A stretch of DNA of 21,834 nt from a virus, in IMG/VR virus record IMGVR_UViG_3300020172_005612, positions 1-21,834 of that record. One strand, given 5' to 3'. Both the position numbers and the translations under genes were made by a program. The notes under the pieces were generated by a model that was not told where the DNA came from, searched no databases, and saw only the letters and a list, made by a program, of their open reading frames with translations. Positions 3,173 through 21,834 of the stretch are shown here, one piece after another. Numbering within the stretch: the first letter of the stretch is position 1; every line of letters begins with the position of its first letter.

Positions 3173-3847
3173 CTAGACAAAAGATAGAAACGTTTGTGTT
3201 TCTGAATCATACTCATAAATCATTTTTGTCATAGGAGAAGCAAGCATTCCCCTATGAATATTTCCAACCACAGATATTAGCACATCAAGCGGCAAAGATG
3301 AATTAGAGAATAATTTTGTTACATAATTGCCTATTACTATCAATTTGTAAAACCACCAAGGCACCATATCCTTAACTAAAAAAGCTCCTCCCAAGTCAAA
3401 TCCACAATTTCCATACATTTGCTTGACTGCTTCAGTACAATAAAAAGCATTAGGATCGATAAAATTAAAATCATAACTTGGATCCATATCCAAAAATCTT
3501 TTAATTTGATAATCTAAACACAAATTATCTTTTTCAGTTTTTTCATTGAGTCTACAAACACAAAAATCTGTAGCTCCCCAATTATCAAACCAATCAACTA
3601 CTCTTAACTTTCTTGTTCCCCAATCTGACACATCTATTGCATAATACTCACCATTTTCAACTTGTATTAATGTTGCATGAGAATATGGAGAATGAGTAAA
3701 TTTTTGTATCCATTTGCCAAAAGGAATGCCTAATGGTCCTCTCACAGATGAAGCAGAATAAACAATATCGCCAGTCTCAAGACCTACTTTTTGTAGCTCT
3801 GTAACTATTATTTTCCGCTTTTCATATAAAGGACCGTGTACAAACAT
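3173..3847 (-). CDS. Permuted NlpC/P60-like (YiiX/papain-like) cysteine amidase or peptidase
   Basis: 224 residues. The order of motifs is that of circularly permuted papain-fold enzymes of the YiiX/NlpC-P60 superfamily. GDIVYSAS (about 26-33) is followed by SPYSHATLIQ with the probable catalytic His57. A strand with Asp72 comes next, and FYCTEAV carries the probable nucleophile Cys137. Family members hydrolyse amide or ester bonds in peptidoglycan, lipids or protein conjugates; the substrate here is unknown. No signal peptide is visible, although residues about 155-180 are rather hydrophobic. The start is fixed by an AGGAGA ribosome site that overlaps the TAG stop of the methyltransferase gene, so the two genes are translationally linked. 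Possible roles are a virion-borne lysin or a host-modifying hydrolase. Confidence 0.65.
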   Translation of the reverse strand: MFVHGPLYEKRKIIVTELQKVGLETGDIVYSASSVRGPLGIPFGKWIQKFTHSPYSHATLIQVENGEYYAIDVSDWGTRKLRVVDWFDNWGATDFCVCRLNEKTEKDNLCLDYQIKRFLDMDPSYDFNFIDPNAFYCTEAVKQMYGNCGFDLGGAFLVKDMVPWWFYKLIVIGNYVTKLFSNSSLPLDVLISVVGNIHRGMLASPMTKMIYEYDSETQTFLSFV

Positions 3848-3850
3848 AAA

Positions 3851-3856
3851 TCTCCT
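3851..3856 (-). promoter_or_regulatory. Shine-Dalgarno site overlapping the upstream stop codon
   Basis: AGGAGA on the minus strand shares bases with the TAG stop (3857-3855) of the methyltransferase gene and sits 3 bases before the ATG at 3847. This indicates coupled translation of methyltransferase and amidase and fixes the amidase start. Confidence 0.7.
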
Positions 3857-4505
3857 AGTTGGAAATCATCCAGAAAAAATTGTCTTTCTTAATTAGTGTT
3901 TTATTTCTTGTTTTGCAAAAATCATAAACAGCAGCTTTGACTCCATCCCAATTTAAATCATGGCCAAACATAACTCCATGAGGAGATAATAAATTATAAT
4001 ATAATCGTATATCAGTTGAAACACTATCAAAACTATGATCGCCATCAATATAAATCATATCAAACTGTATGTTTCTTCCCTTAAAAACCTCTGCTGCTAC
4101 TACACTTGGCAGCGGAACAGGAGTGATGTAATCCTGCATGCCATAATGACAAACATTAACTAAAAATTGATAATAAATTGTGGGATACCCATGATCAAAA
4201 CACAATTCCCTACCACCTTCACCATGAGTAAAATAAAACTCAGATGACCCCAACCAAGTATCAATACAAACAATATGCCCGTCAATTTTACTGTTTTTAA
4301 GTGCTTTGGCCATGTTTATAGCAGATTGGCCTTTATAAGTACCAACTTCGGCTATTACTTTTGGTTTATATCTTGATATTAATTCATTGAATATTTTATC
4401 TTCGCCACCCCATCCAAACAAATCAACATCACAATTCTGAAACTGAAACCCTTCAAATGGGTTGCCATAAGGCAGCAAAGATCGAAATCTAGTTTTGAAA
4501 TCCAT
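3855..4505 (-). CDS. Class I SAM-dependent methyltransferase (Methyltransf_24-like)
   Basis: 216 residues. A Rossmann-type SAM fold is visible. Motif I is VIAEVGTYKGQSA (about 50-62). It is followed by HIVCIDTWLGS (about 77-87), whose acidic Asp82 is expected at the ribose-binding strand. FDMIYIDGDHSFDSVSTDI (about 148-166) and a late SPHGVMFGHDL strand follow. The IDGDH motif with a downstream GHD is typical of the Methyltransf_24 / cephalosporin-hydroxylase-like group, often involved in sugar or small-molecule modification. The true substrate is unknown; modification of virion or host surface glycans is only a guess. The ATG lies inside a perfect inverted repeat and has no clear ribosome site. 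TAG stop overlaps the ribosome site of the amidase gene. Confidence 0.7.
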   Translation of the reverse strand: MDFKTRFRSLLPYGNPFEGFQFQNCDVDLFGWGGEDKIFNELISRYKPKVIAEVGTYKGQSAINMAKALKNSKIDGHIVCIDTWLGSSEFYFTHGEGGRELCFDHGYPTIYYQFLVNVCHYGMQDYITPVPLPSVVAAEVFKGRNIQFDMIYIDGDHSFDSVSTDIRLYYNLLSPHGVMFGHDLNWDGVKAAVYDFCKTRNKTLIKKDNFFWMISN

Positions 4506-4878: not shown

Positions 4879-5751
4879 CTAATCGAGAGTAATTGGTAAA
4901 ATATCACCATATCTTGTTATCAAACGCTCTTCCCAATCTTTCTTTTCTTGGTTGCCTTCTTGTAACAATGTATCACCATCTAGCTGTACTCCACCACCGG
5001 GGCCAGGTGGGTTTTTGATCTTAGACCTAATTCTGCCTAACATAATTTTTGCATATGCTAATGCGCCTTCCTGCATAACTTGCTGCACTCTTCCCCAATC
5101 ATTGTTTTTCTGTAAATAATGTACTACAACACGATGTGCTCTATAAGGTATAGGATAAATTTTTATTGTTTGATATCCGCCATAGAATTCCCAACCACCG
5201 ATATTTGATGCTAATCTTGAATACGTCTGTTCGTATCCCTTATACAAACTCCATTCTCCTGCTCTACCCCATATTGGTTGTACAGGGTCTATTAATCCGC
5301 CTTGTATACTAGCATATGCACCACCTGGATAAAAGTATTCAACAGGTATTGCTCCTCCAAGATCGCTTGATTGAAATGAGAACGTACCTGTTTCCTTATA
5401 AAATACGTTGCGAATGTATCCAATATCTGGTGGCATGGTATAAATACTTTGCCCCGGAATGGTATTAAATACATAATATTGAAAATACTCTCTTGGAGCC
5501 CATTCTTCCAAAACTTGCAAAGCCAAATCAACTGCTGCGTCTAATTGCTGTTCATCTAATTCAATTTGTACTACTGGAGCACCTAACATAAGCAGAACAA
5601 AATCTTTTAATTGGTCTCGTATTTTTCCACGATTTGGTCTTGCACTCAAAGAAGCAATATCTAAAGGGTCTGAAACCCCTAGGTTACTTCCTGTCCCATT
5701 GCAATTGAAACTAGTAGGCTTTTGGAGGTAAATACAATTTGAATTACTCAT
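4879..5751 (-). CDS. T4 gp13-like neck / head-completion (adaptor) protein
   Basis: 290 residues. After a variable polar N-terminus, residues about 43-85 read IRDQLKDFVLLMLGAPVVQI, then ELDEQQLDAAVDLALQVLEEW. This is the helical start of phage neck/adaptor proteins of the T4 gp13 type, where a LGAP-V-x-[IV]-E segment is followed by an acidic helix. A beta-rich middle with GQSIYTMPPDIGYIRNV follows, also usual in this family. The C-terminal part is helical (QEGALAYAKIMLGRIR). Such proteins seal the portal after packaging and form the ring to which the tail joins. The gene is on the opposite strand from the gp14-, gp15- and sheath-like genes, unlike T4. The ATG at 5751 lacks an obvious Shine-Dalgarno sequence; a GATAAATA lies 9 bases upstream and could be a weak late promoter. 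Confidence 0.75.
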   Translation of the reverse strand: MSNSNCIYLQKPTSFNCNGTGSNLGVSDPLDIASLSARPNRGKIRDQLKDFVLLMLGAPVVQIELDEQQLDAAVDLALQVLEEWAPREYFQYYVFNTIPGQSIYTMPPDIGYIRNVFYKETGTFSFQSSDLGGAIPVEYFYPGGAYASIQGGLIDPVQPIWGRAGEWSLYKGYEQTYSRLASNIGGWEFYGGYQTIKIYPIPYRAHRVVVHYLQKNNDWGRVQQVMQEGALAYAKIMLGRIRSKIKNPPGPGGGVQLDGDTLLQEGNQEKKDWEERLITRYGDILPITLD

Positions 5752-5794: not shown

Positions 5795-8767
5795 ATGCCA
5801 TCGAACGACAAATTGTATGAAATATTTGAAAAATACAATTTAAATTCTCAAAGTGTAAAATCTGTTGAGACCAAAAAGCATGCAAATATAAACGAAGTAT
5901 ACCAAAATTATAAAATATCAAAGTACAACTTTATTCATAAAAATTCGTATAAAGCAAATATATCAGAAGTTGTATTTGGGAATGTTTTCAAAGGCACTGT
6001 ATATCTTAATCAAGATGATATTCTGTTTTTAAGACAATTTGATCCTTATTATTGGAAGCAAGCTCTTTTTATGAGATATGACAAATATCTTTTTGAATAT
6101 TTGAGAAGACTGCACAATTTAAGAAAAAATGAATATGATGAAGTTTACAAACATGCTTTAGAACATGAAAAATCAATCATTGATAGCGACCCGTTGTATA
6201 TTAGTGCTGGTAATTCAGCATCATCATTAGCAAAACTTCACGCAAAAGATATAGCAAAACAATTTGTTGATAGAAGATATAATTATACAACTGTTCCGCC
6301 AGAGATGGATAGTTCACTACAGCCTTTTGATCTAGTAACAAGAGGTTTCGATGGATTTAGATTTTTTGCAAAGCCCTACATAAAACCACTTGTAAAAAGA
6401 CTTGAAGGTACAGTAGGTGTACATGATGGTTTTGATCTTCATAATCCTAGAGAAGTGCAAATTAAAACATCTACAAAAGATGGCAGAGTAATTACAACAA
6501 CAAAGAAAGCGACTGATGGATTTGCTTTTCCATCAGAGGAGTCAATTAGAGACATGATCGAAGATTATCTTCGACTGCTCGGCAACCAAATAGTGAAGTA
6601 TGATGCCGAAGACTTAAAGCATAAACCAAATCATCCTGAAAAAGATTCAGCAGACATGCCAGAACAGGATGCAAAATATCACTCATATAATGGTGGTGGC
6701 GGAAGAAAATTAGTAGACTCAATGTATTATGAGCTTACTAAAGACTTTTTAATGAATAATGAATTACAAAAATTAATTGCAAGTTATAGGGCTTCTGGAG
6801 TTGAAATAAACACCTCAGAACTCAGAAAACAAGCAGACAAGAATGCCAAGGATATACTTGACAGATTGATAAGCGAAGGAAAATTCAAAACTGGGAAAAG
6901 AGAAATCCGTATTCCTGACCCCTCAAATCCAAGCTCTGAAATTGTTCTAAGGCCTGAAGATTTACCAACAGGAGATAGAGGTCTTATTACCAAAAGCAGG
7001 ACATCTGTCAAAGGTGGGAAAGATAAAGGGAAAGAAATCGATAAGATCGATCATCCCAGTCTATATCTTCTACATCATACCAACTTTGTGAAAAAAGCGC
7101 CAATCAAATTCAATAAAGATGGGGACGTTGTTTATGAAGGTCAGCCAGAAATTGTAGAAACAGAAATGCCAGTATTAAAAAGCGGGCATGCATACAAAAA
7201 ACTAACCAGAGCAGAACTCGATATACTAGACAAGCTTAAAGAAGTAGGAAATGATCCTAATCGCTTAGATCCTTTTGAAAGAGATATTTACAATAGAGTC
7301 TTTGCTGGCGCTCCTAGCAGAGTATTGCGTGGCGAGCATATGGATGTAGAAAACGCAGACCATCCAGATGAATCAAAAAAGTTCAGATCCCTTTATGTAC
7401 ATAGTGAGCATTTGCCCGGAGCCAACAAGCAAGGTAGCGAGCATAGCCGTGCTGGAGGCCTATTCCCTAATGCTGAAACTCCTGAGAGGCAATATCTAAG
7501 AAAATATGATATTAAAATTTCAGAAGATGCTATTGAAAAATTCCACAATCCAAAATATGCAAAGAAAATCGAACGCATGTTTAGTGCCGATGGCCTCGGC
7601 CATAGTCTACGAAGCATAATAAAAGATTATATAGAAAACAGACTCAATTCAAGTGAATTACAAGAAACATTTAATTTAAGAGTAGAAAGATCAGTTCTAT
7701 TAATGTTTTTACCACAATTAGTAGAAATAGGCTTGCAAAAAGTATTTGAAAACTTAGATCGTGATAACATTGAAACAGATGTAACTGTTATCAAGGATCT
7801 GGTATCAAAAATGTTAACCAGCATGGAACAACAAGACTTCGGGCGTGGTTCCAGAAGAAGAAGACAAAACGCAGTTGCAGCATCTCCACAAGAAGCTGCT
7901 GATCTGTTCTCATTCACAAAATCAATAAGTTGTGGACCAGGCATCAGAAGAATGGAAACTGGAACATGCCGTTTCGTATACAGACTTGAAAACTTGGAAG
8001 AGCTTGCTTCAAACTTAAGCGATGATATTAGAGATTTGCAAAAAACAGTAGCAGACGACGGTGCAAGTGTGTCTGAAAAAGAAACAAGTATTGGAGAAAT
8101 TATATCTAGCTTCCAATTTGCTATGCATGATTTAGGACTCGCCTATTTAGCAAAAGCATTCTACGATAATCCCGATGAAAATTGGGCAAGCGTATCTGTA
8201 AAAAACAGTTATGCTAAGAAAGCACAAGAAAAAGCTGATAAATTTGTAGAAGAAGTATTAGAATCTTTCAGTTCTAATCAAACAGAAGATGGATCTGCTA
8301 TTAAAGCTGGAATGGCAATCGAAAGAATTAAAGCTGAAATTGAGGAAACATTCAAAGGCACTCCCATGCCTGCGGATGTAAATCCCCTTGTAATTCAGGC
8401 AGATAGAGAGCTAAATACAAATCCTATAGATCATGTTGCTATAGTAGAAAAGTATAAGGCTAAACAAGTGCCTGTTATTATTCTAGATTACATAGTATCA
8501 CATGCTAGACAAATTAGCGGTACTATAGCTAAAGCAGAAAATATTTTAGAAAAAATTATTAATGGCACCATGATTCCAACATTAATATTCACTCTAAACA
8601 CAAAATATATTACAAAACCAAAAATAGATGATTTAGTAAAATATTTACAAACAAACCTAAACAATAATACCAATTTTGCAAATAACTATAGAGATAAAAT
8701 TCTAGGTTACATAACAAGATCCAAGGCAGAATTAAATGCTAGATCTGCAAAAGGTATAAAAGCATAA
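5795..8767 (+). CDS. Large protein of unknown function (990 residues), probable virion protein
   Basis: I do not recognise a known domain. The protein is hydrophilic and mostly helical with many Lys, Asp and Glu. Residues about 55-115 include an aromatic-rich patch (FDPYYWKQALFMRYDKY). Residues about 620-700 form a helical stretch with leucines, ending in a basic cluster GRGSRRRR. The last 150 residues are again helical. There is no signal peptide and no clear membrane segment. The N-terminus MPSNDKLYEIFEKYN contains IFE at 10-12, a weak match to the [L/I]-x-E end of the capsid-targeting-like N-termini found on four genes downstream. The start is supported by GGTGA upstream. Its place between neck and tail genes and its size suggest an internal head or ejected protein, which is inference only. 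Confidence 0.8.
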   Translation: MPSNDKLYEIFEKYNLNSQSVKSVETKKHANINEVYQNYKISKYNFIHKNSYKANISEVVFGNVFKGTVYLNQDDILFLRQFDPYYWKQALFMRYDKYLFEYLRRLHNLRKNEYDEVYKHALEHEKSIIDSDPLYISAGNSASSLAKLHAKDIAKQFVDRRYNYTTVPPEMDSSLQPFDLVTRGFDGFRFFAKPYIKPLVKRLEGTVGVHDGFDLHNPREVQIKTSTKDGRVITTTKKATDGFAFPSEESIRDMIEDYLRLLGNQIVKYDAEDLKHKPNHPEKDSADMPEQDAKYHSYNGGGGRKLVDSMYYELTKDFLMNNELQKLIASYRASGVEINTSELRKQADKNAKDILDRLISEGKFKTGKREIRIPDPSNPSSEIVLRPEDLPTGDRGLITKSRTSVKGGKDKGKEIDKIDHPSLYLLHHTNFVKKAPIKFNKDGDVVYEGQPEIVETEMPVLKSGHAYKKLTRAELDILDKLKEVGNDPNRLDPFERDIYNRVFAGAPSRVLRGEHMDVENADHPDESKKFRSLYVHSEHLPGANKQGSEHSRAGGLFPNAETPERQYLRKYDIKISEDAIEKFHNPKYAKKIERMFSADGLGHSLRSIIKDYIENRLNSSELQETFNLRVERSVLLMFLPQLVEIGLQKVFENLDRDNIETDVTVIKDLVSKMLTSMEQQDFGRGSRRRRQNAVAASPQEAADLFSFTKSISCGPGIRRMETGTCRFVYRLENLEELASNLSDDIRDLQKTVADDGASVSEKETSIGEIISSFQFAMHDLGLAYLAKAFYDNPDENWASVSVKNSYAKKAQEKADKFVEEVLESFSSNQTEDGSAIKAGMAIERIKAEIEETFKGTPMPADVNPLVIQADRELNTNPIDHVAIVEKYKAKQVPVIILDYIVSHARQISGTIAKAENILEKIINGTMIPTLIFTLNTKYITKPKIDDLVKYLQTNLNNNTNFANNYRDKILGYITRSKAELNARSAKGIKA

Positions 8768-10101: not shown

Positions 10102-10395
10102 ATGTTAGATAATGGTTTTTATGGCTGGTTAAATCTTTTTGAAGCAAAAGAAAAGTCAAAAGAAGCACTAACACTTCTCCAAACTTTTGAAAGCAGATCA
10201 GAAGAAATTAGCAAAAACATTAAAGACTTTGCAAAATCCTTGATCGAAAAGAACAAGGAATTAGGGGGTCATTTTCTAAGTCCAAATCAATTGCAGGCTT
10301 GTGATGAAATAGTTTCTCAAGGAATAAATCATCCAGAAATCATAAAGCCAGTACTTTATGAAAAGTTTAGACCAGATTCTTTAATGGTAGACTAA
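10102..10395 (+). CDS. 97-residue ORF with capsid-targeting-like N-terminus; may be the 5' part of a broken longer gene
   Basis: The N-terminus MLDNGFYGWLNLFE-AKEKS carries an aromatic helix ending in LFE (12-14), similar to T4 capsid-targeting sequences that end in an [L/I]-x-E cleavage site. The rest is a helical, charged protein (residues about 20-70), then HFLSPNQLQACDEIVSQGIN. No domain is recognised. A ribosome site (AAGG) precedes the ATG. The frame ends at TAA (10393-10395), and the same frame then stays open to 13059. So this ORF may be either a complete small protein or the amino-terminal part of a gene of about 985 codons that was split by a nonsense change. Confidence 0.7.
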   Translation: MLDNGFYGWLNLFEAKEKSKEALTLLQTFESRSEEISKNIKDFAKSLIEKNKELGGHFLSPNQLQACDEIVSQGINHPEIIKPVLYEKFRPDSLMVD

Positions 10396-10758
10396 GCATA
10401 CCAAACTTGTTGGGGAGGAACTGGCGGCGATGAAAACGTTGGATTAAGGCCAAGAAAAGATATTAGTAATTCACCACAAATAAGAGGCAAAAGAAGCGAA
10501 CTAGGGACACATACAGGAATAATAAAAGCAGAAAATGGCCGTTTAGAATTTAACTATGAAAAAGACCGAGCTTTTGCTGTATCCACAGAAGTCACTAATT
10601 ATGGCCCAGGCAATATATTTGTAATTATCAATCGCAAATTTGAAGGACAAATAGAAGTATTTCCAAATACAACCCAGCAAATTCAAGATGGTTCAGACGA
10701 TATAAAAATTATAACAATAAATACTGATACAGTAGCCAAATATCGTGTTGTATCCAAC
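10396..10758 (+). other. In-frame open extension upstream of the 10759 ATG, no standard start codon
   Basis: These 121 codons are open, in the frame of both the 97-residue ORF and the 766-residue ORF. They contain no ATG, GTG or TTG in that frame. They look coding: residues encoded at about 10570-10755 read as a beta-rich domain (EVTNYGPGNIFVIINRKF, then VAKYRVVSN). A very good ribosome site GGGGAGGA (10412-10419) precedes an ATG at 10430, but that ATG is in another frame and stops after five codons. The stretch is therefore the missing start region of the downstream gene, reached by readthrough of the TAA, by a frameshift after 10430, or lost through mutation. Confidence 0.6.
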
Positions 10759-13059
10759 ATGGTATCACAAAGCAGATACAAAATAATAAAGCCCTTTCCT
10801 AGTTTTGCAACAAAATTTATTTTTAGACTTTTGGTTGAACTTCTTGCATGGGTATCAAAACAAAATATTGAGAATGTTGAAAATTTCAGATTTGAAGATT
10901 TCTATGAGTTAGTTATACGTCTTGGTGGCAAAGGTCTCCGTAAAAATTCTAGCAAAGGCGATTTCCACGATCTCCTATCAAACAAAAAATCTCGCTCTGA
11001 GGAGATTAAAGCTTCTTTAGAAGATAAAGATGAACTATTTGGCGATGTAGATAATGATTTTGAACCAGATGAAGAACTTGGGGACGAAGTTAAACTTGAA
11101 AACACTTATATAAATCAAAAACTAATTTATGTATTTGAAAATGCTCTAATCAAAGCCATTTACGAAAATCAAGAAAGTGATCCAGTTGATGACGATCATT
11201 TGAAGAAACAGCTATTAGATCTTGCATCAACCAACAAGCGAGTACCTGAGTTGAGTTCACCATTAGGAAAAGCACTTATTAGATTTACAAATCCATATTA
11301 CAAAAGATATGATAGAGAATTTGCAAAAAATATTGAAAGTATAAATCCAGATTTTATAGTAGTAGCAAACAAAAAAGGACAAGTACAAAGATTAAATGCC
11401 GCATTAGGCAACCTAAATACTTATTCGGGAAAATCCAATCTTATATTTTCACTGCTTAATTTCTTCACAGGTTGTTTTACATCCACACTTATTAATATAT
11501 CTAAATCCGCCATGCTAGCTGCTGCTAGTAGAGGCAAAGAAGACAAAGGCGAAGGTGGATTAAAAGGTGGAAAAGGTGCATTAAAAGCTGGTAGATTTGC
11601 AGTTTCAGCTAAACAAAGAAGCGCAGATCCTAGAATTGCACAAAGACAAGAACAAGAAAAAGAAGAGTTAGATAGATTGAAGGCTGCAGATGAGGCACAA
11701 AAACAAGCTAGAGAAACTGGAATAGCAGCAACATTGATGGGTGCAGAAGATACCGACGATAAAGATTATTCAGCAGATGTCAAAAAAGAAATATCAGAAG
11801 TAGCCGAGGATCACTTTGTACCAGAACTATACAGGTGCTTAAAACAAACACAAGAACAAGCAAGAAGCCTGCTAACTACGACAGGAATAACAGAACACGC
11901 AAAACGGCTAACACTAAAACTTATTGATGTTTTGGCAACAGAAATTATAGAAGAAATTGATAATGACTTGAAAGCCTTTGTTGATAAAGCAAGCTACGCC
12001 ATAACATCTGGATGGTTTGTTGCAAAAAGAAGACAATGGCCATATTGGCTTACTGCAGAACTTTATGCTAACAAACTTACTGAAGAAAAGTATCCAGAAC
12101 TTATAAAAATATTCCAAGACTATTGTGGCAAAGAAGCTTGCAAAATGGGTGTAAACTACGGACTTGCAATTAGAGACACTTTAAACACTAATGCAACATT
12201 AAAAGAAAATATTTATTACAACTTGGCCGTACCTTTTGTTAAAGCTTTTGAAATATATGAAATTGCTTCAAGCGGCAAAGAAGTCGAAAAATATAAACTG
12301 ACTCACAAATCTGACTGTGGGCAAATTTATACCAAAACTGCTTTCGCAGGTGATAAAAAATGGAAAAAATTAAGTCCTGATGAATTCCCTTACAGCAAGG
12401 ATATTCATCACGCCTCAAAACTAAAAGATATGCCAGTCACAGCACCAAAAAAACCTGAAAAACAAGAGTTGTATTCGGCAGAAGATAAAGCAGATCTAGA
12501 AAAATTTGCACAAGATAAATTTAGCAAAGGTCTCTCTGCTGCCCTTGCTTCTGGCAAAATAAATAAAGATTGGCTAGAGTCCAAAAAACAAGAAATTATT
12601 TCCCGTATTCGTAAATTTATTCTTGAAGACGATGATTTAGCAAGCAGATTCCAATACGATGAAAAAATTCCATCTTATGTTTATGAAATTATATTAAATC
12701 AACTAGGAATAGAAGCAAAACCCGAACTTGATGTCTCTAAACCGATAGAGCAAGAAAAACCAAAACCTACTATTGCTCCTATTATAAAACCAATAATATC
12801 ACCGTTGCCCATACAAAAACCTGAAGAGCCAAAAGTAGCTGCAAAACCTTTTGTAGAACCATCAGTAGATGTTCCCCCAGTTTCATTGCCAAAGATTCCT
12901 TTGCCAAAGATTATTTCTGCTCCAGCCGTAACGCCAGAACCAGAAAAAGTAGAGAAAGCCCCAGAACCAGTTGTTCAAGAACCGAAAGCACAGCAACCTT
13001 CGAATTTACAAAAGTTTTTAGACATACTAAATAAAGCTAAACAGGGCAAAACTACATGA
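10759..13059 (+). CDS. Large unknown protein, probable virion component (at least 766 residues; true start uncertain)
   Basis: I recognise no domain. From the ATG at 10759, residues about 60-115 are acidic. Residues 226-255 are a hydrophobic segment (NLIFSLLNFFTGCFTSTLIN), followed by a Gly/Lys-rich stretch (GGLKGGKGALKAGRF). Residues about 300-330 form a charged helix, and residues about 345-560 are mostly helical. Residues about 654-747 are a Pro/Lys/Glu-rich linker with PxP repeats, and the last 19 residues form a short helix. The ATG has no ribosome site, and the frame is open 363 bases upstream, so this is probably not the real start. The TGA stop overlaps the next ATG (ATGA), so the two are coupled. 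A membrane-like segment in an otherwise soluble protein would suit an ejected internal protein, but this is speculation. Confidence 0.75.
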   Translation: MVSQSRYKIIKPFPSFATKFIFRLLVELLAWVSKQNIENVENFRFEDFYELVIRLGGKGLRKNSSKGDFHDLLSNKKSRSEEIKASLEDKDELFGDVDNDFEPDEELGDEVKLENTYINQKLIYVFENALIKAIYENQESDPVDDDHLKKQLLDLASTNKRVPELSSPLGKALIRFTNPYYKRYDREFAKNIESINPDFIVVANKKGQVQRLNAALGNLNTYSGKSNLIFSLLNFFTGCFTSTLINISKSAMLAAASRGKEDKGEGGLKGGKGALKAGRFAVSAKQRSADPRIAQRQEQEKEELDRLKAADEAQKQARETGIAATLMGAEDTDDKDYSADVKKEISEVAEDHFVPELYRCLKQTQEQARSLLTTTGITEHAKRLTLKLIDVLATEIIEEIDNDLKAFVDKASYAITSGWFVAKRRQWPYWLTAELYANKLTEEKYPELIKIFQDYCGKEACKMGVNYGLAIRDTLNTNATLKENIYYNLAVPFVKAFEIYEIASSGKEVEKYKLTHKSDCGQIYTKTAFAGDKKWKKLSPDEFPYSKDIHHASKLKDMPVTAPKKPEKQELYSAEDKADLEKFAQDKFSKGLSAALASGKINKDWLESKKQEIISRIRKFILEDDDLASRFQYDEKIPSYVYEIILNQLGIEAKPELDVSKPIEQEKPKPTIAPIIKPIISPLPIQKPEEPKVAAKPFVEPSVDVPPVSLPKIPLPKIISAPAVTPEPEKVEKAPEPVVQEPKAQQPSNLQKFLDILNKAKQGKTT

Positions 13060-13589
13060 TATACAGAAATGATGGTAGACCATATTGTGTTACTGGATCC
13101 CAACAACAGTTCGATGATGGGCTGCCAGAACACAACTTGTTTAATGCTTGGGATGAAGAATCAATAAAAATTGGTGGCTCCCCCATATTTTATTATGAGC
13201 TATTTGTTGATATAAATAATATAGATCCAATATATCTTGAAACCCGTACAAAGATGTTCAGTCCAAATCCTGTACAACTATATGGGTTTTATGAGCCTGT
13301 GCCTAGTCAGAACTTACAAACTGCTTTTGGCATAGATTCGCCTGACGAAATGATATTTGAATTTAACTATAGATCAGTTTTGAGAACACTTGGCCATGCT
13401 CCAAAAATAGGATCAAGACTGTTCACGCCTTTTTTGAAAGAGAACTGGACAATAATTGAAAGAAAGACTGGGGAATTCAAAATGTATGGAGTTGTTAGAC
13501 TTCAATGTATATGCCAACGCTTCCAAGAGGACGACGTAAGCGGCACCTCTGTAAATAAAGCCCCAGATGTAGATTACAAAATTGTATAA
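13056..13589 (+). CDS. Probable T4 gp14-like neck protein
   Basis: 177 residues. The start overlaps the previous stop in ATGA. The middle resembles T4 gp14 in the order of features. GSPIFYYELFVD is followed by PNPVQLYGFYEPVPSQ. A FGI-x-SPDEMIFEFN strand comes next, then PKIGSRLFTP-F and WTIIERK, comparable to the gp14 order of FGM-x-x-x-DEVTLSI, PKEGDLIYFP and LFEI. The similarity is remote and I judged it by eye. gp14 joins gp13 and the tail terminator (gp15) at the head-tail junction; the presence of gp13-like and gp15-like genes nearby supports this. It could also be another neck or tail-tube-terminal protein. No RNA or membrane signals are seen. Confidence 0.5.
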   Translation: MIYRNDGRPYCVTGSQQQFDDGLPEHNLFNAWDEESIKIGGSPIFYYELFVDINNIDPIYLETRTKMFSPNPVQLYGFYEPVPSQNLQTAFGIDSPDEMIFEFNYRSVLRTLGHAPKIGSRLFTPFLKENWTIIERKTGEFKMYGVVRLQCICQRFQEDDVSGTSVNKAPDVDYKIV

Positions 13590-13602
13590 ATGAGGATTTA
13601 TT

Positions 13603-14184
13603 ATGAAAAGTTTTTTTTCCTTTTATGACAAACTTAAGAATATTAATGAGCAAGACATGGGAATGCCACCATTAGGCGTTCAACAACAAGGCATGCAGCC
13701 TCAAGGCCCAGCACCTACTTTGCCTATGGGAATGCCTCCGGTAATAGCTCCCGGAAATCAAGCAAATCAATTGGGTATGCAGCAAACTGAATTGCCAGCA
13801 CAAGATGCTCCTGCTGATAATCTTAGTCAGCCAGAAGGCAAAGATGCACAAGACCCACAAAGCATGATGATAAAAGCTTTACAAGATATTCTCGCTGCAT
13901 TAGAGCCTTCAGAAGAAGGAGATGAATCCAAAAAAGGAATGGATTTAGACGAAGATAGAAAAGCCACTATTTCTCAATTAGCAAAAATGGGACTTCGCAT
14001 ACTAGGTGTAAGTGATGACGAAGATGAAGAGGAAGAAGAATCTGAGTCTCCAGCAGATATGCCTGTAGGAACAACCGCTCCAGAAAAACCGATTGGGGAA
14101 CTTGGAGACATGGCAGGAATGTCAAATGCTGGCACATCCGATATGCCAAATCAAGCTGGAGTATTACAACCACAAGCAGAATGA
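13603..14184 (+). CDS. Pro/Met/Gln-rich protein with capsid-targeting-like N-terminus (193 residues)
   Basis: No known domain. The N-terminus MKSFFSFYDKLKNINE-Q is nearly the same as that of the next gene (MKSFYEFYRKL) and ends in INE (14-16). Residues about 18-80 are Pro/Met/Gln/Gly-rich and probably disordered. Residues about 86-136 contain two helices (MMIKALQDILAALE and KATISQLAKMGLRILG). Residues 137-150 are very acidic (DDEDEEEEESESP), and the tail is again Pro/Gly/Met-rich. The layout equals the first 190 residues of the neighbour, so the two probably arose by duplication. Ribosome site GAGG lies 8 bases before the ATG. The T4 prohead-core and internal proteins have similar short N-terminal signals; role as an internal head protein is an inference. 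Confidence 0.7.
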   Translation: MKSFFSFYDKLKNINEQDMGMPPLGVQQQGMQPQGPAPTLPMGMPPVIAPGNQANQLGMQQTELPAQDAPADNLSQPEGKDAQDPQSMMIKALQDILAALEPSEEGDESKKGMDLDEDRKATISQLAKMGLRILGVSDDEDEEEEESESPADMPVGTTAPEKPIGELGDMAGMSNAGTSDMPNQAGVLQPQAE

Positions 14185-14237
14185 TATTATTATAATAAAG
14201 TAAATATATAATTTAGGAATCATATTCAAGGTGAAAC

Positions 14238-17200
14238 ATGAAGAGTTTTTACGAATTTTATAGAAAACTACAAGCAGATAAACTTTTCGAACAAGTTGGT
14301 GGCGCACAACAAATGCCTCCTATGGCTCCTCCAGCCCCCGGAATGATGCCTCCCGCTCCTCCTACAGGAGGACTGCCTCCCTTGGCTCCCCCTACAGGTA
14401 TGCCGCCTGCTATGCCTATGGCTGCTGCAGATATGAATATGCCTGCAGAGGCTTTGGGGGATGAAAATGTAGATTCAGTAGAAGGAATAGACACTACTAC
14501 ACCTGAAGGAATGGTTCACCAAAGCATAATTGACATACAAAGTGCCATCGAAATGGCCAAAGAAGGTGGCACTAACCTTGATAAAAACGATCTGCAAGTA
14601 TTATCAGATATTGCTGATATGATCAAAACAAACCTTGATAAAGCTAGTGGCAAAGCAGCACCTCTAGGAGACATGGAATCACCTCCAGAAGAAGGAATGG
14701 CTGCTCCTGAAGGGCCTCCTATTGGCGATCAAGCCATGATGATGGGAGCAGCCCCCGATATGGGATCTATGCCTCCTGCTACACCTCCTGCTCCTATGGC
14801 TATGCCAAATGAATCCTATGTATATTCAGAAGCTGTAACTGGCGACTCTTTCAATTTTGACAATGTTAGACTAGCTTGGGGGCAAGTACAGGTTGATGCA
14901 GGCAAGCAAAAAGGAATTTTTAGCTGCCAGAAAGAACAACCCTATGACCCTTCTAGGTTTTGGAGTATTTTTTCACACCCAGAAGACGAAACATATGTAA
15001 TGGTACAAAGACTAGCAGTAACCCAAGATGGCAAAATTGACGGTCCTCCAGTTTTGGACGCAAAAGGAAGACCTGTATACAAAACCGTAAGAAAAGTAGT
15101 TAGAAAACCTGTAGTAGATTATATTGCTCCTGGCCTTCCAAGAAAAAGTGTTTTTGTAAATAAAGAGACAGGAAGAGAGTGGGAGAAACACATTCTTATT
15201 GCTCCTATGAAAGGTGTAAAAGGTGTAAGATCAGATCCCGCTACACATAAAAATGTTTACAAAAATATTGAGACAGGAGAGTTCCACAGCCAACCAAAAG
15301 TTGTGTCTCCTACTTTATCATTCCACAAGCCAAATCAACCTCAGCCTGGCGTTTTGGCATCAAAAAATCTGCTTACTAAAGTTAATGATTGGAAACCTTT
15401 CATAGATTCAGACAATCAATTATCACTATCACAATCTATTGGGGTTAGTGAAGCCTGTTTCAACATGAAAATGATTGAAAGAATGATTTATTGTGGCTGG
15501 ATCAAACCCGATTACATTAATACATTCTTTGTTAAACTTGAAAAAGACAAGCATCTTTCAAAACATCACGCAGCAGATGAGTATTTTAAGATACCATGCT
15601 ATATCAACAAAGCAAGCCTTGGCAAGTACAACTACAATCTAGCCAAAAAAGAAAAAGAACTTACCGACATGAAATCTCAAGTTATTGATGAACTTAATCA
15701 ATATGTTGAAGCTATTCTTGATCCAGAAAACAAATTTGGCACATATGCTAAGAATCTTGCAAAAGATCTTGAAGGCAAAATGGCTAATTTTGATTCAGAT
15801 GAGGTAGGAGCTACAGCAGCTTTCAAGCGTCTTATGTTTGCTATGGCAAACAGACATAAAGTTCAGGACATAGCAAAAAGTATAAGTCCAGAAGCCATGA
15901 GACTTGTTGATGAAAAAGAAAGATCAATTCCACAGCTTATTGAAAAAATAAAACGAGAAGAAAACATTCCTCTTCATCTTGATAATGCAATCATGTTAGT
16001 TGACAACGAAGTCTGTGATGCTGCTGGATTCTCTCATCCCCAACTAGTTGCAGGCCAAGCTCCAGATCTTCCTACATTCAAAGCAGGAGAAGACATAATT
16101 GGATACGGCGATGACGAAGAAGAAGATGTAGAAACAATTGTCGAAAGACGCATGAAAGTAATTAAAAAGCTTTATCCTGCCAAGAAGTATCCAAGAGAAG
16201 AATACATAGGACCAGATCCAGACAATCCTGATAAAACCAAGCTTCTGCCAGACCATATTAAGATAAGAGTAAAAACTCTTGCTGGCAAGGATGGTTTGAA
16301 AAAGAAAGTTTACCTCGTAATAAATCAAAAGACTGGCCAGCCTGTAATGCCTCTAAAAGTTTATATCCCTTACACTGGCGATCCAGCAAAAGATAAAGAT
16401 ATAAAAGATTTGAATAATGCATATTCAAGCGCCACAAACTTTGAGTATGATCAATTAGTCAAAAAACTAAAAGATGTCGATGCTTTAAAAAATGTAAATA
16501 AATTGTTCAAAACAGTAAGTGGCGAAGAATCTAAACAAAAAGAACTTGAGAAGCTTTCAGATCCATTCTTCTATAGAGATTATCCAAATTACCCCGCTTT
16601 CATGAGAGAGCTTACTGATATGGTTGGAGCACAAAAACCAGATGAATCTAAAGAAGAATTTGAAAATAGGAAGAAAAAAGCTTCAGACGCTCTTGCTAGG
16701 AAATATGAACTTGGAATTTATAGTCCAGCATATGCTACTGTTCTAGCAACAGACCCTGAAGATGAATTCGTATGGAGTCCTCAGTATGATGAAGACAGTC
16801 CACTACTACGCTCCCAAGAAGCTGGTACTGTAAAAGTTACGGCTGGTCCTAGTTTAACCAGACCAGATATGACACAGCCTGAAGAAATGAAATCTCCAGC
16901 GCCTGCACGAACAAAAGAGAAAAAGCCTAAAAAGCAAAAAACAAAAATTGCTTCTAAAAAAGTTGCAGACACATCATCCACCACTCCACAAGAAGAGCCC
17001 ACAATACCTGAGTTCAAAACTGAGGAAGAAGCTTGGGAAGCAGTGCAGAACTACGAAGCTACTATAAAAAATATTTTAGACCAAATGGACGAATTAAGAA
17101 AATCGATTCGACCCCAAAATGACGAAGACTCCAAGTATTTAAAAATGCAAACTGCTTTTGTTAAAGATTTAAAGGAAAAAAACCCCACAGCAGGTTACGA

Positions 17201-17405
17201 CGAAATATATAAAGCCCCACAGTATCTTGAATTACAAAAACAAAGAGATGCTATAGAAAAAGAAATAGCACCAACTAAAGCTAAAATTGATGCGCTAAAA
17301 AAACGTCCAGAAGTAGAAAAACTTAATAGGTTACAAACTGCTTGGACTACACTTTGGAGAGCAAAAAAAGAAAAAGAAAAGGCTCAAGAAGATAAGGGAA
17401 AATAA
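14238..17405 (+). CDS. Large protein of unknown function (1055 residues) with capsid-targeting-like N-terminus
   Basis: The N-terminus MKSFYEFYRKLQADKLFE-Q ends in LFE (16-18). Residues about 24-68 and 145-190 are Pro/Met/Gly/Ala-rich. Between them lies a helical module (HQSIIDIQSAIEMAKEGG, then LDKNDLQVLSDIADMIKTNL) like that of the previous gene. Residues about 200-330 form a folded mixed region (FNFDNVRLAWGQVQVDAG). Residues about 400-640 are mainly helical, and residues about 640-760 are basic (KKLYPAKKYPREEY). Residues about 894-910 are a Lys-rich linker, and about 927-1055 are a probable coiled coil rich in Lys and Glu. No recognised catalytic motif or signal peptide. The ribosome site AGGTGA precedes the ATG. 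It is transcribed together with the 193- and 274-residue genes. Likely a virion protein. Confidence 0.8.
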   Translation: MKSFYEFYRKLQADKLFEQVGGAQQMPPMAPPAPGMMPPAPPTGGLPPLAPPTGMPPAMPMAAADMNMPAEALGDENVDSVEGIDTTTPEGMVHQSIIDIQSAIEMAKEGGTNLDKNDLQVLSDIADMIKTNLDKASGKAAPLGDMESPPEEGMAAPEGPPIGDQAMMMGAAPDMGSMPPATPPAPMAMPNESYVYSEAVTGDSFNFDNVRLAWGQVQVDAGKQKGIFSCQKEQPYDPSRFWSIFSHPEDETYVMVQRLAVTQDGKIDGPPVLDAKGRPVYKTVRKVVRKPVVDYIAPGLPRKSVFVNKETGREWEKHILIAPMKGVKGVRSDPATHKNVYKNIETGEFHSQPKVVSPTLSFHKPNQPQPGVLASKNLLTKVNDWKPFIDSDNQLSLSQSIGVSEACFNMKMIERMIYCGWIKPDYINTFFVKLEKDKHLSKHHAADEYFKIPCYINKASLGKYNYNLAKKEKELTDMKSQVIDELNQYVEAILDPENKFGTYAKNLAKDLEGKMANFDSDEVGATAAFKRLMFAMANRHKVQDIAKSISPEAMRLVDEKERSIPQLIEKIKREENIPLHLDNAIMLVDNEVCDAAGFSHPQLVAGQAPDLPTFKAGEDIIGYGDDEEEDVETIVERRMKVIKKLYPAKKYPREEYIGPDPDNPDKTKLLPDHIKIRVKTLAGKDGLKKKVYLVINQKTGQPVMPLKVYIPYTGDPAKDKDIKDLNNAYSSATNFEYDQLVKKLKDVDALKNVNKLFKTVSGEESKQKELEKLSDPFFYRDYPNYPAFMRELTDMVGAQKPDESKEEFENRKKKASDALARKYELGIYSPAYATVLATDPEDEFVWSPQYDEDSPLLRSQEAGTVKVTAGPSLTRPDMTQPEEMKSPAPARTKEKKPKKQKTKIASKKVADTSSTTPQEEPTIPEFKTEEEAWEAVQNYEATIKNILDQMDELRKSIRPQNDEDSKYLKMQTAFVKDLKEKNPTAGYDEIYKAPQYLELQKQRDAIEKEIAPTKAKIDALKKRPEVEKLNRLQTAWTTLWRAKKEKEKAQEDKGK

Positions 17406-17406
17406 A

Positions 17407-18231
17407 ATGAATTTTAGAGATCATTTAATAAAAGAAGAACAACAAATACTAGCAGACTTCATAAACTTTTGTGAAGCCAATAATCTTCCAGTCACTATGG
17501 AGTCTGTTACTGTATACAATGAATTCTTAAGTAAAATGGGGCAAGGTGCCCGTAGAGCTTTAGTCGGTGCAACATTACCATTTCTTATGTGGCAAACTGG
17601 CACCGCTACTGCTCAAAATGCTAGAGGAAAATCTGCTACTCCAGCTCAAAAACCAGTAGCTGCTATGGCGCAAAAAGCAGAAATTGCTGGCGTAAAGAAA
17701 ATGGATATGGCTTTAAAAAACTGGAAAGCTGTAAACACTTATTCAACTTTAGTTACAAGAGAAAAAGAATCAGATCTAAGTAAGACTGGCATGCGTAGTG
17801 GAAAAGGAATGCCATATAAAATTATATTTGGCGGATCAAAAGAACATATGTATCACCAAAATGCTTTTGGTGTAAAATCTGATTTTGATTTCAGCAAAAT
17901 AAAAAGAACACAAAATTCAAACCCTGATTGGAGATACATTCCTGCTCTTAACAAATTTGTTAGTTTAAAAGATTTGCAAGATAGTGATTCTCCGCTCGAA
18001 GTTCATTTACATGATTCTTTTGATGGCGAAGAACAAGGAACTGTTGGAGAATTTTTTGGCATGCAACAACATGAGCTAGAAGATCTTTTTTCACAAGGTC
18101 TAGTGCCTATTCAAAAAGCTCCCAAAATGCAAAATACACCAGACTCACCTCTTCGTGGTTTGCCAAAAGCAGAAACAGATCCAAGTAAAATTCCTGATGC
18201 ACCAAAACAATATAAGCCGGATGTATACTAA
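17407..18231 (+). CDS. Protein of unknown function with targeting-like N-terminus and internal signal-like segment (274 residues)
   Basis: The gene starts one base after the stop of the 1055-residue gene, with AAGGGA as ribosome site. The N-terminus MNFRDHLIKE-EQQ has IKE at 8-10 and closely resembles T4 internal protein III (MKTYQEFIAE). Residues about 44-71 read like a bacterial signal or membrane segment: Met44, RR at 49-50, hydrophobic ALVGATLPFLMW, then TATA before Gln70. Residues about 75-100 are Ala/Lys-rich. The middle (residues about 120-220) is mixed alpha/beta with GMPYKIIFGGSKEHMY and a HLHDSF motif. The last 45 residues are Pro/Lys-rich. I recognise no family. The hydrophobic segment could be membrane-active after ejection, or fortuitous. 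Confidence 0.75.
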   Translation: MNFRDHLIKEEQQILADFINFCEANNLPVTMESVTVYNEFLSKMGQGARRALVGATLPFLMWQTGTATAQNARGKSATPAQKPVAAMAQKAEIAGVKKMDMALKNWKAVNTYSTLVTREKESDLSKTGMRSGKGMPYKIIFGGSKEHMYHQNAFGVKSDFDFSKIKRTQNSNPDWRYIPALNKFVSLKDLQDSDSPLEVHLHDSFDGEEQGTVGEFFGMQQHELEDLFSQGLVPIQKAPKMQNTPDSPLRGLPKAETDPSKIPDAPKQYKPDVY

Positions 18232-18244
18232 CTAATATAGAAGT

Positions 18245-19240
18245 ATGAAACCTATAGGCCCAAATGTTAATAGTTATGGTAAATCTCTTAACGACTTTAA
18301 GGAGTTGTCTCCCCAAGATCGTTCAGAGAATATTGATCCACCACCAGGTTATTGTGAACAGCCTCCAGATAATCAAAACAATCAAAATATCTCGCCTCCT
18401 AGCGATTGGAATTTTGACACTTTAGTAATTAACAAAACAGGCAATGGAAGTCAAAACAATTGTGACCCTATGCAAACGGGGCAAATTGTTAATGATTTAA
18501 ATCCGCCGAATAGAAACACAATATACAGATATTCAAAATCAATTCGTGGATGTGATGAAGCTGTAATGGATTTGTTTAGAAATTTAGTAATTATAGACGA
18601 AGACGGAAAAGCTTTACCTGTGCCAGTTATATGGGCAACACAAGAAAGAGCAGTAGCAGCAGTAGTACAAGACAATGTAAGAAAAGATGATACACTTGTA
18701 GTTGATCGTATTAAATTACCTATGCTTGCAATCAGTTCAACTGAATTTAATTTTAATCAAGATCGATACACATATCATCAAGCAATTAGTTTTATGAAAG
18801 ACACAGATGGCAAGCCTGCATTTTATACTTCTGAAAAATACAAAATGGATACTGTATTTGGAGTTGCTAGAGGCATACCAATAGATGTTGGATATACTTT
18901 ATATGCATGGACCATGCAATTAGAAGATATGAACCAAATACTAGAGCAAATAGTTACTAAATTTAGTCCTGTAGCATATATAAAAGTGAGAGGAGTCAAT
19001 TGGGAAGTTCCAGTAAAGTTAACATCTATTGCTAACAATCTTGAAACAGAACCAGGAGATCAAGCTCTCAGAGTAATTAAGTTTCAGTTCGGCCTAACAG
19101 CAGAAACATATGTTGCTCAACCCATTAGAAGAGAAAAAACTGTTCTATCTACTAGGGTTGAAATTGGTGATGCTGCCGCCGACGAAAATATTACTGAGAT
19201 AATTGCAAGAATAGAAGAAACAGTTAAGGAGATTGGATGA
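18245..19240 (+). CDS. T4 gp15-like tail terminator / tail sheath stabilisation protein
   Basis: 331 residues. The N-terminal 90 residues are Pro/Asn-rich and probably flexible. Residues about 90-300 match the T4 gp15 plan: YRYSKSIRGCDEAVMDLFRN, then ALPVPVIWATQERAVAA, an LPMLAIS strand, and YTLYAWTMQLEDMNQILEQI with TKFSPV. The corresponding T4 gp15 features are the YELSIFTRYEDDMFQIVEQI helix and the preceding LPRI strand. A gp15-type hexamer caps the tail tube and sheath and binds the neck. The N-terminal extension is not in T4 gp15. The ATG is only 13 bases after the previous stop and has a weak AGAAG ribosome site. Stop TGA overlaps the next ATG. Its place just before the sheath gene agrees with this role. 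Confidence 0.8.
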   Translation: MKPIGPNVNSYGKSLNDFKELSPQDRSENIDPPPGYCEQPPDNQNNQNISPPSDWNFDTLVINKTGNGSQNNCDPMQTGQIVNDLNPPNRNTIYRYSKSIRGCDEAVMDLFRNLVIIDEDGKALPVPVIWATQERAVAAVVQDNVRKDDTLVVDRIKLPMLAISSTEFNFNQDRYTYHQAISFMKDTDGKPAFYTSEKYKMDTVFGVARGIPIDVGYTLYAWTMQLEDMNQILEQIVTKFSPVAYIKVRGVNWEVPVKLTSIANNLETEPGDQALRVIKFQFGLTAETYVAQPIRREKTVLSTRVEIGDAAADENITEIIARIEETVKEIG

Positions 19241-19473
19241 TTGAAATTAAAAATGTGAAAAGGCAACCCATACAAATAATTGTAAGATCAAGAAAATCTC
19301 CAAAACAATTCACAGTCTTGCATCTTCCAGGGATAGGAAATGAAAAAAATATTTTTTATTTAGAAGAAGAGAGAGCAACTGAATATATAAAGAGAGCAGA
19401 AAAATCTGGTCATATAAAAACCAGACTTGTAGCAAATACATTTGGAACAGGAGAAAAACATGGCAATTCTTAA
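19237..19473 (+). CDS. Small protein of unknown function (78 residues) upstream of the sheath gene
   Basis: The start overlaps the gp15-like stop (ATGA) and has AAGGAG 5 bases upstream. The 3' end overlaps the sheath start by 14 bases, so translation of all three is coupled. The protein is basic with beta-strands near the N-terminus (PIQIIVRSRKSPKQFTVLHL) and a helix at about 44-58 (EEERATEYIKRAEKSG). No family is recognised. Its place between tail terminator and sheath suggests a tail assembly accessory. Confidence 0.7.
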   Translation: MIEIKNVKRQPIQIIVRSRKSPKQFTVLHLPGIGNEKNIFYLEEERATEYIKRAEKSGHIKTRLVANTFGTGEKHGNS

Positions 19474-21834
19474 GGGTTTTCCACCTTCTAATACGATCAG
19501 TCCCAGTGTACGCATCACTGAGAAAGATCTAACATCTCTTGCAACAGCCCCTTCGGTTAATAATATTGGTATCGTAGGATATGCTTCTAAGGGACCAATC
19601 AATGTTCCAACTTTAGTAACCGACATTTCTAGCTTGCAAAGAATTTTCGGAAACCCACATCCAGCAACAACAACTCCCTACTTGATTTATGCTGCACAAA
19701 ATGCACTAATTACAAGTAGCGCAGTCTATGTCGTTCGTGTAGCTGACCAAGATATTCTTAGTCCTACATATGCTAAAACTGCCACTGTTGATATTCCTGC
19801 TGCCGGAAGTGTCATTGAAGTTGAAGGCGATCAAGATGGCGATTTCAACTTTACACAAGACACTTACTTTCGCTGGAAGCTCAATGGTGTAGAAAGCGAC
19901 AAGATTCTTGTTGTTCTAAAAGATGACTCTAGACCATCTCCTGATACTGGCGATCCTTACAACGCTGCTGATTTGGTCGAAACACTCAATTCTCAACTAG
20001 ACTTTGATGTTGACGGCATCGAATTCTTCGTTGGTTCAACAGGCTCAAATGTTGGCATTCGTACAACTTGGGCATATGGACCGAACGCCTCACTTGAATT
20101 TATGGGTATCGAGAGTTCCCTAGTAGGTGGCACAACATCTGCCACAAATAATCTACTAGGCCTTGGTAACGCTATGGAGCCAGCCAGTCTTGTAGGAACA
20201 GTAACAAAATATCCAAATAATGTTTACACACCTCCCGGTCGTTGGGACTTCCATGCTGTAACAAACTTCTTCATCGATGTTGTTGTTGATGGAACAGGCA
20301 ATACATCTATAGATAATATTGTTCAAACTGTAGATCTTTCTGCTTTGGAAGGTGCCGACTATAACATTACAAACATCATCACTGAAATCAACGATCAAAT
20401 TGCCAATCTTCCCGGTGGATTTGTAGCAGTTGCTAATGCAGGCGCTGTTGAACTAAAGACTACAATTAACGGCAGAAACGGTCGTTTAAGCGTTAAAAAT
20501 AATGGTGACGGACCTGTAATTCTAGGCCTAACAAACCCAGTTAGTGGAGTTGCAACATACAACCCAGTCGTAGGCGTAAGTCCTGCTGGGGCTTCTGATG
20601 ACACAGATCCATTTGATTTTGGACTTCTCACAGGACCAACCAACACTACTGACGCTATTTCTTTAACAATTAATGCAGACAGCCCCGGCATCGAAGGAAA
20701 CTCGACTCAGGTCGTTGTTACAAATTATGACGGCGGCACATTTAGCATCTCTGTGTACAGCGAAGGCAGCCAAGTTGAAGTATTTGGCAACTTGACCAAG
20801 AATGTTGCTTCCCGTTATTATGTTGAAACATATGTAAATCTTCTTAGCAACTATATTCGTGTTGTAGATAACACAGATGTAAATGCTCCTCCACAAAACA
20901 GTGTTGCCACCGGAGTTTCTTTAGTAGGCGGCACAGATGGTGTTCCAACTGATCCAGATGATTATGACAACGTACTAATAGGCAGTCCTCTTCTAGATAC
21001 TGGTCTTTACGCTTTTAGCGAACCAGAGTATACAGATATTGGACTTCTAGCCGCCCCCGGCCAATCTTCTACAGATGTTGTTCTTAAATTGATTGATGTT
21101 TGCCAAAACTATCGCCAAGATTGTTTGGCTATCATCGATCCTCCAAGCGACATGCCTCCAAGTGAAATAGTAATGTGGCAAAATGGTGCTCACCCATTAA
21201 ACAACGTCAGATTTGATTCTGACTTTGCTGCCCTCTACTGGCCTTGGGTTGTTGTAAGAGATACTTATAACAACATGAATGTTACAGTTCCACCAAGCGG
21301 TGCTGCTCTAGCTACAATTGTCAGAAGTGATACTCTAGGATATCCTTGGTTAGCTCCTGCTGGTCTCACTAGAGGAATTGTTCCAGGCATATTAGATGTT
21401 GCCTACAGCCCAACTCTAGCTCAGAGAGACCAGATGTATGGCTTCCAAAATGCAATCAATCCAATTATCAGCTTCCCTGATGTTGGAGACTTTGTTATCT
21501 GGGGACAAAAAACACTTCAGAGAAGACCCTCTGCTCTTGACAGAGTCAATGTACGCAGAATGATGTTTTTCATAGAGAAAAACATACGCATTCAAGCTCG
21601 CAACTTAATATTTGAACCAAACACCTCGGCTGTAAGAGCTAAGTTCATTAGTCTTGCTCGCACAATACTAGATGGCGTTCAAATTAATCAAGGAATATAT
21701 GATTATTTCATCAAGTGTGATGCAGAACTAAACACACCAGATGTAATTGACAGAAATGAACTAAGAGCAAGAATAGGTGTCCAGCCTACAAGAGCAATAG
21801 AATTCGTATTTATTGAATTCTCTCTACATAGAAC
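19460..21834 (+). CDS. Tail sheath protein (T4 gp18-like; partial at the right edge)
   Basis: 791 codons are visible with no stop, and the end is close because the gp18-type C-terminal strands are already present (RAIEFVFIEFSLHR). The N-terminus (MAILKGFPPSNTISPSVRI) and NNIGIVGYASKGPINVPTLV are typical of sheath N-termini. Residues about 530-620 have QNYRQDCLAIIDPPSD and ALYWPWVVVRD, and then GYPWLAPAGLTRGIV and NPIISFPDVGDFVIWGQKT. Residues about 690-780 carry RVNVRRMMFFIEKNI and NTPDVIDRNELRARI. The middle (about 110-500) is beta-rich and contains extra domains compared with T4 gp18 (659 residues). Contractile sheath subunits surround the tail tube and shorten to drive injection. The ribosome site AGGAG lies inside the preceding gene. 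Confidence 0.93.
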   Translation, partial: MAILKGFPPSNTISPSVRITEKDLTSLATAPSVNNIGIVGYASKGPINVPTLVTDISSLQRIFGNPHPATTTPYLIYAAQNALITSSAVYVVRVADQDILSPTYAKTATVDIPAAGSVIEVEGDQDGDFNFTQDTYFRWKLNGVESDKILVVLKDDSRPSPDTGDPYNAADLVETLNSQLDFDVDGIEFFVGSTGSNVGIRTTWAYGPNASLEFMGIESSLVGGTTSATNNLLGLGNAMEPASLVGTVTKYPNNVYTPPGRWDFHAVTNFFIDVVVDGTGNTSIDNIVQTVDLSALEGADYNITNIITEINDQIANLPGGFVAVANAGAVELKTTINGRNGRLSVKNNGDGPVILGLTNPVSGVATYNPVVGVSPAGASDDTDPFDFGLLTGPTNTTDAISLTINADSPGIEGNSTQVVVTNYDGGTFSISVYSEGSQVEVFGNLTKNVASRYYVETYVNLLSNYIRVVDNTDVNAPPQNSVATGVSLVGGTDGVPTDPDDYDNVLIGSPLLDTGLYAFSEPEYTDIGLLAAPGQSSTDVVLKLIDVCQNYRQDCLAIIDPPSDMPPSEIVMWQNGAHPLNNVRFDSDFAALYWPWVVVRDTYNNMNVTVPPSGAALATIVRSDTLGYPWLAPAGLTRGIVPGILDVAYSPTLAQRDQMYGFQNAINPIISFPDVGDFVIWGQKTLQRRPSALDRVNVRRMMFFIEKNIRIQARNLIFEPNTSAVRAKFISLARTILDGVQINQGIYDYFIKCDAELNTPDVIDRNELRARIGVQPTRAIEFVFIEFSLHR

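Follow-up and report, generated by a model that had tools for sequence, protein, structure and literature searches.

The 21,834-base sequence analysed here (the window, which is the whole of IMG/VR record IMGVR_UViG_3300020172_005612) covers a fragment of the genome of an uncultured T4-like phage (myovirus). The proteins that start at positions 13603, 14238 and 10102 (continued at 10759) appear to carry removable N-terminal propeptides of the T4 capsid-targeting type, as does the protein at 5795, with a longer one; we give this reading a probability of about 0.82. The putative signal combines a short aromatic helix (the tag) with a [hydrophobic]-x-E site. According to PMC9026906, the T4 signal relies on residues 4 and 7 for targeting and on residues 8 and 10 for processing, with L/I-x-E as the motif after which gp21 cuts. 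By analogy, an amphipathic aromatic helix (MKxF.E[FMWY]) would dock the protein on the prohead scaffold core, a gp21-type prohead protease would cut the [L/I/M/F/V]-x-E site after a variable linker, and the mature protein would stay inside the DNA-filled head, for ejection.

N-terminal signals in the neck region

The tagged or possibly tagged features of the window are as follows (aa, amino acids; a slash after E marks the predicted cut):

10102..13059, + strand: 985-codon open frame with one TAA (10393-10395) inside, called as 10102-10395 and 10759-13059
10102..10143, + strand: putative targeting propeptide MLDNGFYGWLNLFE, predicted cut before A15
13603..14184, + strand: 193-aa tagged protein, the mature part being a low-complexity Met/Pro/Gln-rich region and a helical acidic segment
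13603..13650, + strand: putative targeting propeptide of the 13603 protein, MKSFFSFYDKLKNINE, 16 codons, predicted cut E16/Q17
14238..17405, + strand: 1055-aa tagged protein, with an N-terminal core as in 13603 and a long C-terminal extension
14238..14291, + strand: putative targeting propeptide of the 14238 protein, MKSFYEFYRKLQADKLFE, 18 codons, predicted cut before Q19, in the T4 internal-protein register
14823..14834, + strand: possible second cut site YSE/A at residue 198 of 14238, aligned with LNE/S of locus L006 at the border of core and extension
5795..8767, + strand: 990-aa protein found at the same place in relatives, predicted 58-residue propeptide ending NISE/VV
17407..18231, + strand: 274-aa protein, possible tag MNFRDHLIKE (N-terminus only), hydrophobic stretch further on

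A gene with a start of the 13603/14238 type lies between gp15 and the gene at the T4 gp14 place in nearly every relative that reaches this interval. There are exceptions: in L007 and L123 the start was missed by the calling of open reading frames (ORFs), and L045, L043 and L138, which are the most distant loci, have no + strand gene of this type there. The aromatic helix is present in all 20 distinct N-termini from the interval, and 19 of them begin with MK[STN]F, the exception being MSNSFYKLF. Starts such as MKSFYEF and MKSFFSF align with T4 MKTYQEF, with aromatics at 4 and 7 in the register of internal protein III (IPIII). All 20 N-termini also have [L/M/F/I]-x-E (P1 is E in 20/20, and P3 is strictly L or I in 15), followed at P1' by Q in 19 and A in one. 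The position of the glutamate ranges from residue 13 to 21, indicating a linker of variable length, and the rest of the aligned protein is mostly low-complexity. Two fixed blocks across an indel-tolerant linker are what would be expected of a docking part and a cut site, and the combined signal is strong in the sequences of 13603 and 14238.

13603 and 14238 are probably paralogs, their cores being 35% identical in the alignment. The long protein 14238 and its L006 homolog share 32% identity, and not only their tag sites but also YSE/A (198) and LNE/S (215) fall in the same alignment columns, the latter pair near the end point of the short orthologs. A second cut of 14238 at the border of core and extension is a hypothesis suggested by these two sequences.

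In syntenic relatives, the place of 10102 is taken by a single intact ORF, 455-825 aa long. Since a single TAA interrupts an otherwise open frame that is intact in the relatives, the 97-aa and 766-aa ORFs are best read as one gene. A separate small protein at 10102 was therefore rejected, as this ORF is the front of the 985-codon gene. Candidate explanations for the TAA at 10393-10395 are a sequencing error, a population variant or a real stop. The pattern F-x-x-W...[hydrophobic]-x-E-[A/S] is kept in all ten distinct N-termini of the family, in contrast to the bodies, which are poorly conserved in the alignment. The F-x-x-W is shifted two residues from the IPIII register (aromatics at 4 and 7), and helix and site together make a strong signal in these ten sequences.

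For 5795, the preliminary description had proposed IFE at residues 10-12 as a weaker version of the tag. It is not a conserved site and was rejected in favour of E58/V59, which the alignment gives as ISE/V at residue 58. The closer homologs have [hydrophobic]-x-E at one aligned column (LLTE/A, LLGE/A, RLDE/A and VLSE/A, with NISE/V in the window). This column directly precedes the conserved beginning of the mature part and suggests a probable cut of 5795 at residue 58 rather than 12. An AlphaFold model (mean predicted local distance difference test score 62) is disordered to residue 66 and ordered from about 67; a Foldseek search of this model against the PDB gave nothing below E = 1.

Prohead protease and head maturation

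The gp21-like protease that the preliminary description proposed to look for was found in relatives. PF03420 matches occur in G007, G014, G016 and G017, where the orthologous neck region is on the same contig, and in LR756511.1, a 595-kb uncultured phage record that is the nearest large sequenced relative of the window within the phage collection. In G007 and LR756511 the protease lies inside a gp20-21-22-23 module, and in G014 and G017 some 7 kb separate it from the orthologous neck gene that carries the tag. The histidine of GELxHP and the serine of SSRG are kept with respect to T4 gp21 in the two relatives' proteases that were aligned. LR756511.1 also encodes a second, diverged S77 protease-like protein (242240-243133), in which the GELxHP histidine is missing.

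Five small proteins (61-70 aa) of relatives carry the tag or a close variant of it, then [hydrophobic]-x-E/V[S/G]TST..VA:

G005:C1:75989-76201, G006:C1:18896-19105, G007:C1:617-829, G016:C1:222066-222257 and G013:C1:64778-64963 (the G013 copy is identical in G012): small tagged capsid-arm-like proteins

What follows their site (KLKE/VGTSTANVA, LNE/VSTSTADVA) echoes the capsid protein (LINE/VSTDTADVA), whose predicted mature N-terminus in G007, G014 and G016 is E/VSTDT..(V/I)A. Most of the small proteins end in a basic tail. Because the sequence that follows their site repeats the beginning of the mature capsid protein, they tie the site to head maturation.

A different explanation is that the N-termini form helices that dock the protein during assembly, to the scaffold, portal or neck, and stay on it, and that [L/I]-x-E is an uncut helix cap. 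The window's tagged genes do sit among neck and tail genes, their cleavage is extrapolated from T4, and T4 targeting is possible without processing (PMC9026906). We nevertheless consider a retained helix unlikely, because the glutamate and the hydrophobic P3 are fixed while the length of the linker varies, the same site opens the capsid-protein-like mini-proteins, and gp21 is conserved including its catalytic residues.

The tag across protein families

Genes were called on ten long contigs of relatives, LR756511 and the window, and their proteins were clustered on the part after residue 30 into 1,386 families, each of which entered the coupling test with one representative. [LI].E at residues 8-23 was found in 53 of 116 families with an aromatic tag (46%) and in 183 of 1064 others (17%; p~3e-11). 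Without LR756511 the counts are 42/78 and 74/435 (p~4e-11), and the aromatic-tag families have no excess of [LI].E at residues 31-46 or 51-66. The same tag thus stands on unrelated bodies. Of 2,429 N-termini, counting those of the window, 22 fit MK[STN][FY].E[FYWM], a strict pattern derived from the T4 internal proteins, as against only 2 of 9,385 internal Mets. With the expectation for each contig taken from internal Mets, tagged genes number 19 against 0.8 expected in a 225-kb contig, 15 against 1.2 in a 91-kb contig, 30 against 13.8 in LR756511 and 10 against 2.4 in T4. The shared N-termini might instead go back to gene duplication or common descent in one family, as the related cores of 13603 and 14238 and the orthology of the interval genes could suggest. 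Such an origin is very improbable, since the helix-plus-site pattern is common to families whose mature parts have no detectable homology, single representatives were used in the coupling test, and the excess in the 225-kb contig is large.

The tag is absent from all 60 homologs of T4 non-virion proteins, for which only about 4 were expected, and from all 47 homologs of shell, neck and tail proteins, and it is present in 143 of the 2,322 remaining genes. Its occurrence on early, non-virion proteins, which the preliminary description had named as evidence against its proposal, was therefore not seen among these 60 homologs. Its suggestion that the signal is a tool for listing the internal proteome holds up statistically, through the coupling and the excess per contig.

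The four ORFs with which that description began (10102, 13603, 14238 and 17407) are all present with their N-termini, and so is the [L/I]-x-E within 18 residues. The motif is not special by itself, however. It occurs in the first 18 residues of 109 of 479 relatives' proteins (23%), in 17% of stretches after an internal Met, and in 6 of the 18 window proteins, including those at 3173 and 5795 (binomial p=0.07). Bare [L/I]-x-E is thus near chance and was dropped as evidence. A pooled position profile of hydrophobic-x-E-[A/S/G] has no genome-wide N-terminal peak, so the cut site must be read jointly with the helix. What sets the signal apart is its coupling to the aromatic helix and its conservation. 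Chance, with short aromatic starts and [L/I]-x-E both being common, as the counts for the bare motif illustrate, is hardly credible given the coupling statistics with their position controls and the conservation in relatives, which refutes it for 13603, 14238 and 10102 but does not extend to 17407.

The comparison with T4 capsid targeting therefore survives the sequence tests of register, two-block conservation, a protease in relatives and untagged non-virion homologs. Several points weigh against it. The protease is absent from the window and from the contigs of its nearest relatives, all of which are fragments without the head module. The interval genes are orthologs, so that 20/20 does not represent 20 independent events, and P1' in the 13603/14238 family is Q, where T4 internal proteins have E/A. 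False positives occur with the loose tag pattern, a DNA primase and SpoVR being in the tagged set. The register of 5795 is shifted, and several of its more distant relatives start directly at the aligned site (MKLFSEYF), which makes the case for this protein weaker. The possible tag of 17407 rests on one sequence, its sole homolog being a 96%-identical copy. More generally, the basis is sequence, and docking, cutting, packaging and ejection of the window proteins, including their entry into the head, are expected by analogy with T4.

Comparison with known phages and other genes of the window

The capsid-targeting mechanism has been described in T4 (PMC9026906, PMC3012670, PMC9391042). In the T4 record NC_000866, IPII and IPIII begin MKTYQEFIAE/A, as the preliminary description had stated for IPIII, and IPI begins MKTFKEF...ITE/A. 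The strict tag pattern finds IPI, IPII, IPIII and the 54-aa gp61.1 in T4. The last of these (NC_000866 18966-19130) has the capsid-targeting-like start MKTFKEFIKE. The window's putative propeptides resemble those of IPI, IPII and IPIII in being N-terminal and 10-19 residues long, with aromatics at 4 and 7, K2, E6 and an [L/I]-x-E site (cut by gp21 in T4), and in combining a conserved tag with diverged bodies. They differ in standing on proteins of up to about 1,000 aa, between neck genes, in having a variable linker, and in a P1' that is mostly Q (13603/14238) or A/S (10102 family). There are also many more tagged families per genome in the window's clade than in T4.

T4 Alt is likewise a large protein with a short N-terminal propeptide, which is trimmed by gp21, and it is ejected, as the window proteins may be. 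Its start, MELITELFDE, is however a different helix, and no sequence relation was found. 5795, 10759 and 14238 had no match to the Alt/Mod ADP-ribosyltransferase families in Pfam and PHROG. The giant phages phiKZ and SPN3US have another form of propeptide processing by a prohead protease (PMC5694885), which likewise cleaves behind a glutamate within a short motif and removes N-terminal propeptides from inner-head proteins. Those propeptides are mostly long (over 100 residues) and the motif is another one (PMC5694885), whereas the window's clade has short T4-style tags and, in the relatives, a T4-type S77 protease and a gp20-21-22-23 module.

The T4 and SPN3US/phiKZ work was all that a literature search for such a tag in metagenomic or jumbo phages returned. 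The new elements are the clade itself, how large some of the tagged proteins are, their location amid neck genes, the linker of variable length together with Q at P1', and how many families carry the tag. For T4, the tag has been established on a small number of proteins, some of which are injected counter-defence proteins. A bolder proposal, which we hold only tentatively and at below even odds, is that a single modular tag for head import serves dozens of proteins in each genome of huge uncultured T4-like phages. These would make up a large injected payload (~1,000-residue proteins; HAD phosphatases, a C39 peptidase, a serine hydrolase), long members such as 14238 would be cut again to free a C-terminal cargo, and the shell would be lined by the small tagged peptides with their copy of the mature capsid protein's N-arm. 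If tens of proteins are indeed tagged in these phages, the sequence would suffice to tell what their heads contain, and many unknown genes could be assigned a location and a likely role, in DNA binding, the lining of the capsid, early takeover of the host or counter-defence. The tag, found on dozens of relatives' proteins, can be used for listing the probable head contents of these phages, and the tags offer short, portable import signals of different design.

Some tagged proteins of relatives have enzyme domains and are candidate injected enzymes: L145:8763-9524 (HAD_SAK_1), L173:13795-14364 (NIF-type HAD), L090:9897-10484 (C39 peptidase), L165:10428-11102 (FSH1 serine hydrolase) and L165:11130-11528 (phospholipase A2-like, its tag being doubtful). 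Two loci (L138:4433-4582 and L043:8386-8535) encode 49-aa tagged peptides that end in a lysine run (MISFKQWLNE...KKKKKKKSKKKKK) and are possibly DNA-binding internal peptides.

The window has no DNA match among known phage genomes, and tblastn of 14238 and 5795 against these genomes gave no match. The tagged window proteins also have no confident match in Pfam and PHROG. Its untagged neck and tail genes are:

4879..5751, - strand: head-tail adaptor gp13/Ad2 (PHROG 211)
13056..13589, + strand: 177-aa conserved neck protein at the T4 gp14 place, assigned by synteny only
18245..19240, + strand: tail sheath stabiliser gp15 (PF16724, 8.5e-20)
19460..21832, + strand: gp18-like tail sheath, by homology, continuing past the contig end

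The protein at 13056-13589 has no sequence match to T4 gp14. The window's gp15 is 54% identical to that of LR756511.1, compared with about 25% for cyanophages, and a related gp15 is found in 46 IMG/VR loci, the gene at the gp14 place in 29. In L009 (9081-9971, - strand) and L119 (7170-8060, - strand) an opposite-strand gene (MKSIFRYPGGKS...) lies between the tagged gene and gp15, which by eye only has the look of a DNA adenine methyltransferase. Other relatives have a different opposite-strand gene between the tagged gene and gp15, and this spot resembles an insertion point. Beside the tail-fibre genes, the window encodes a Peptidase_C92-type protein (3173-3847, - strand; 4e-7) and a Methyltransf_24 protein (3855-4505, - strand; 7e-17).

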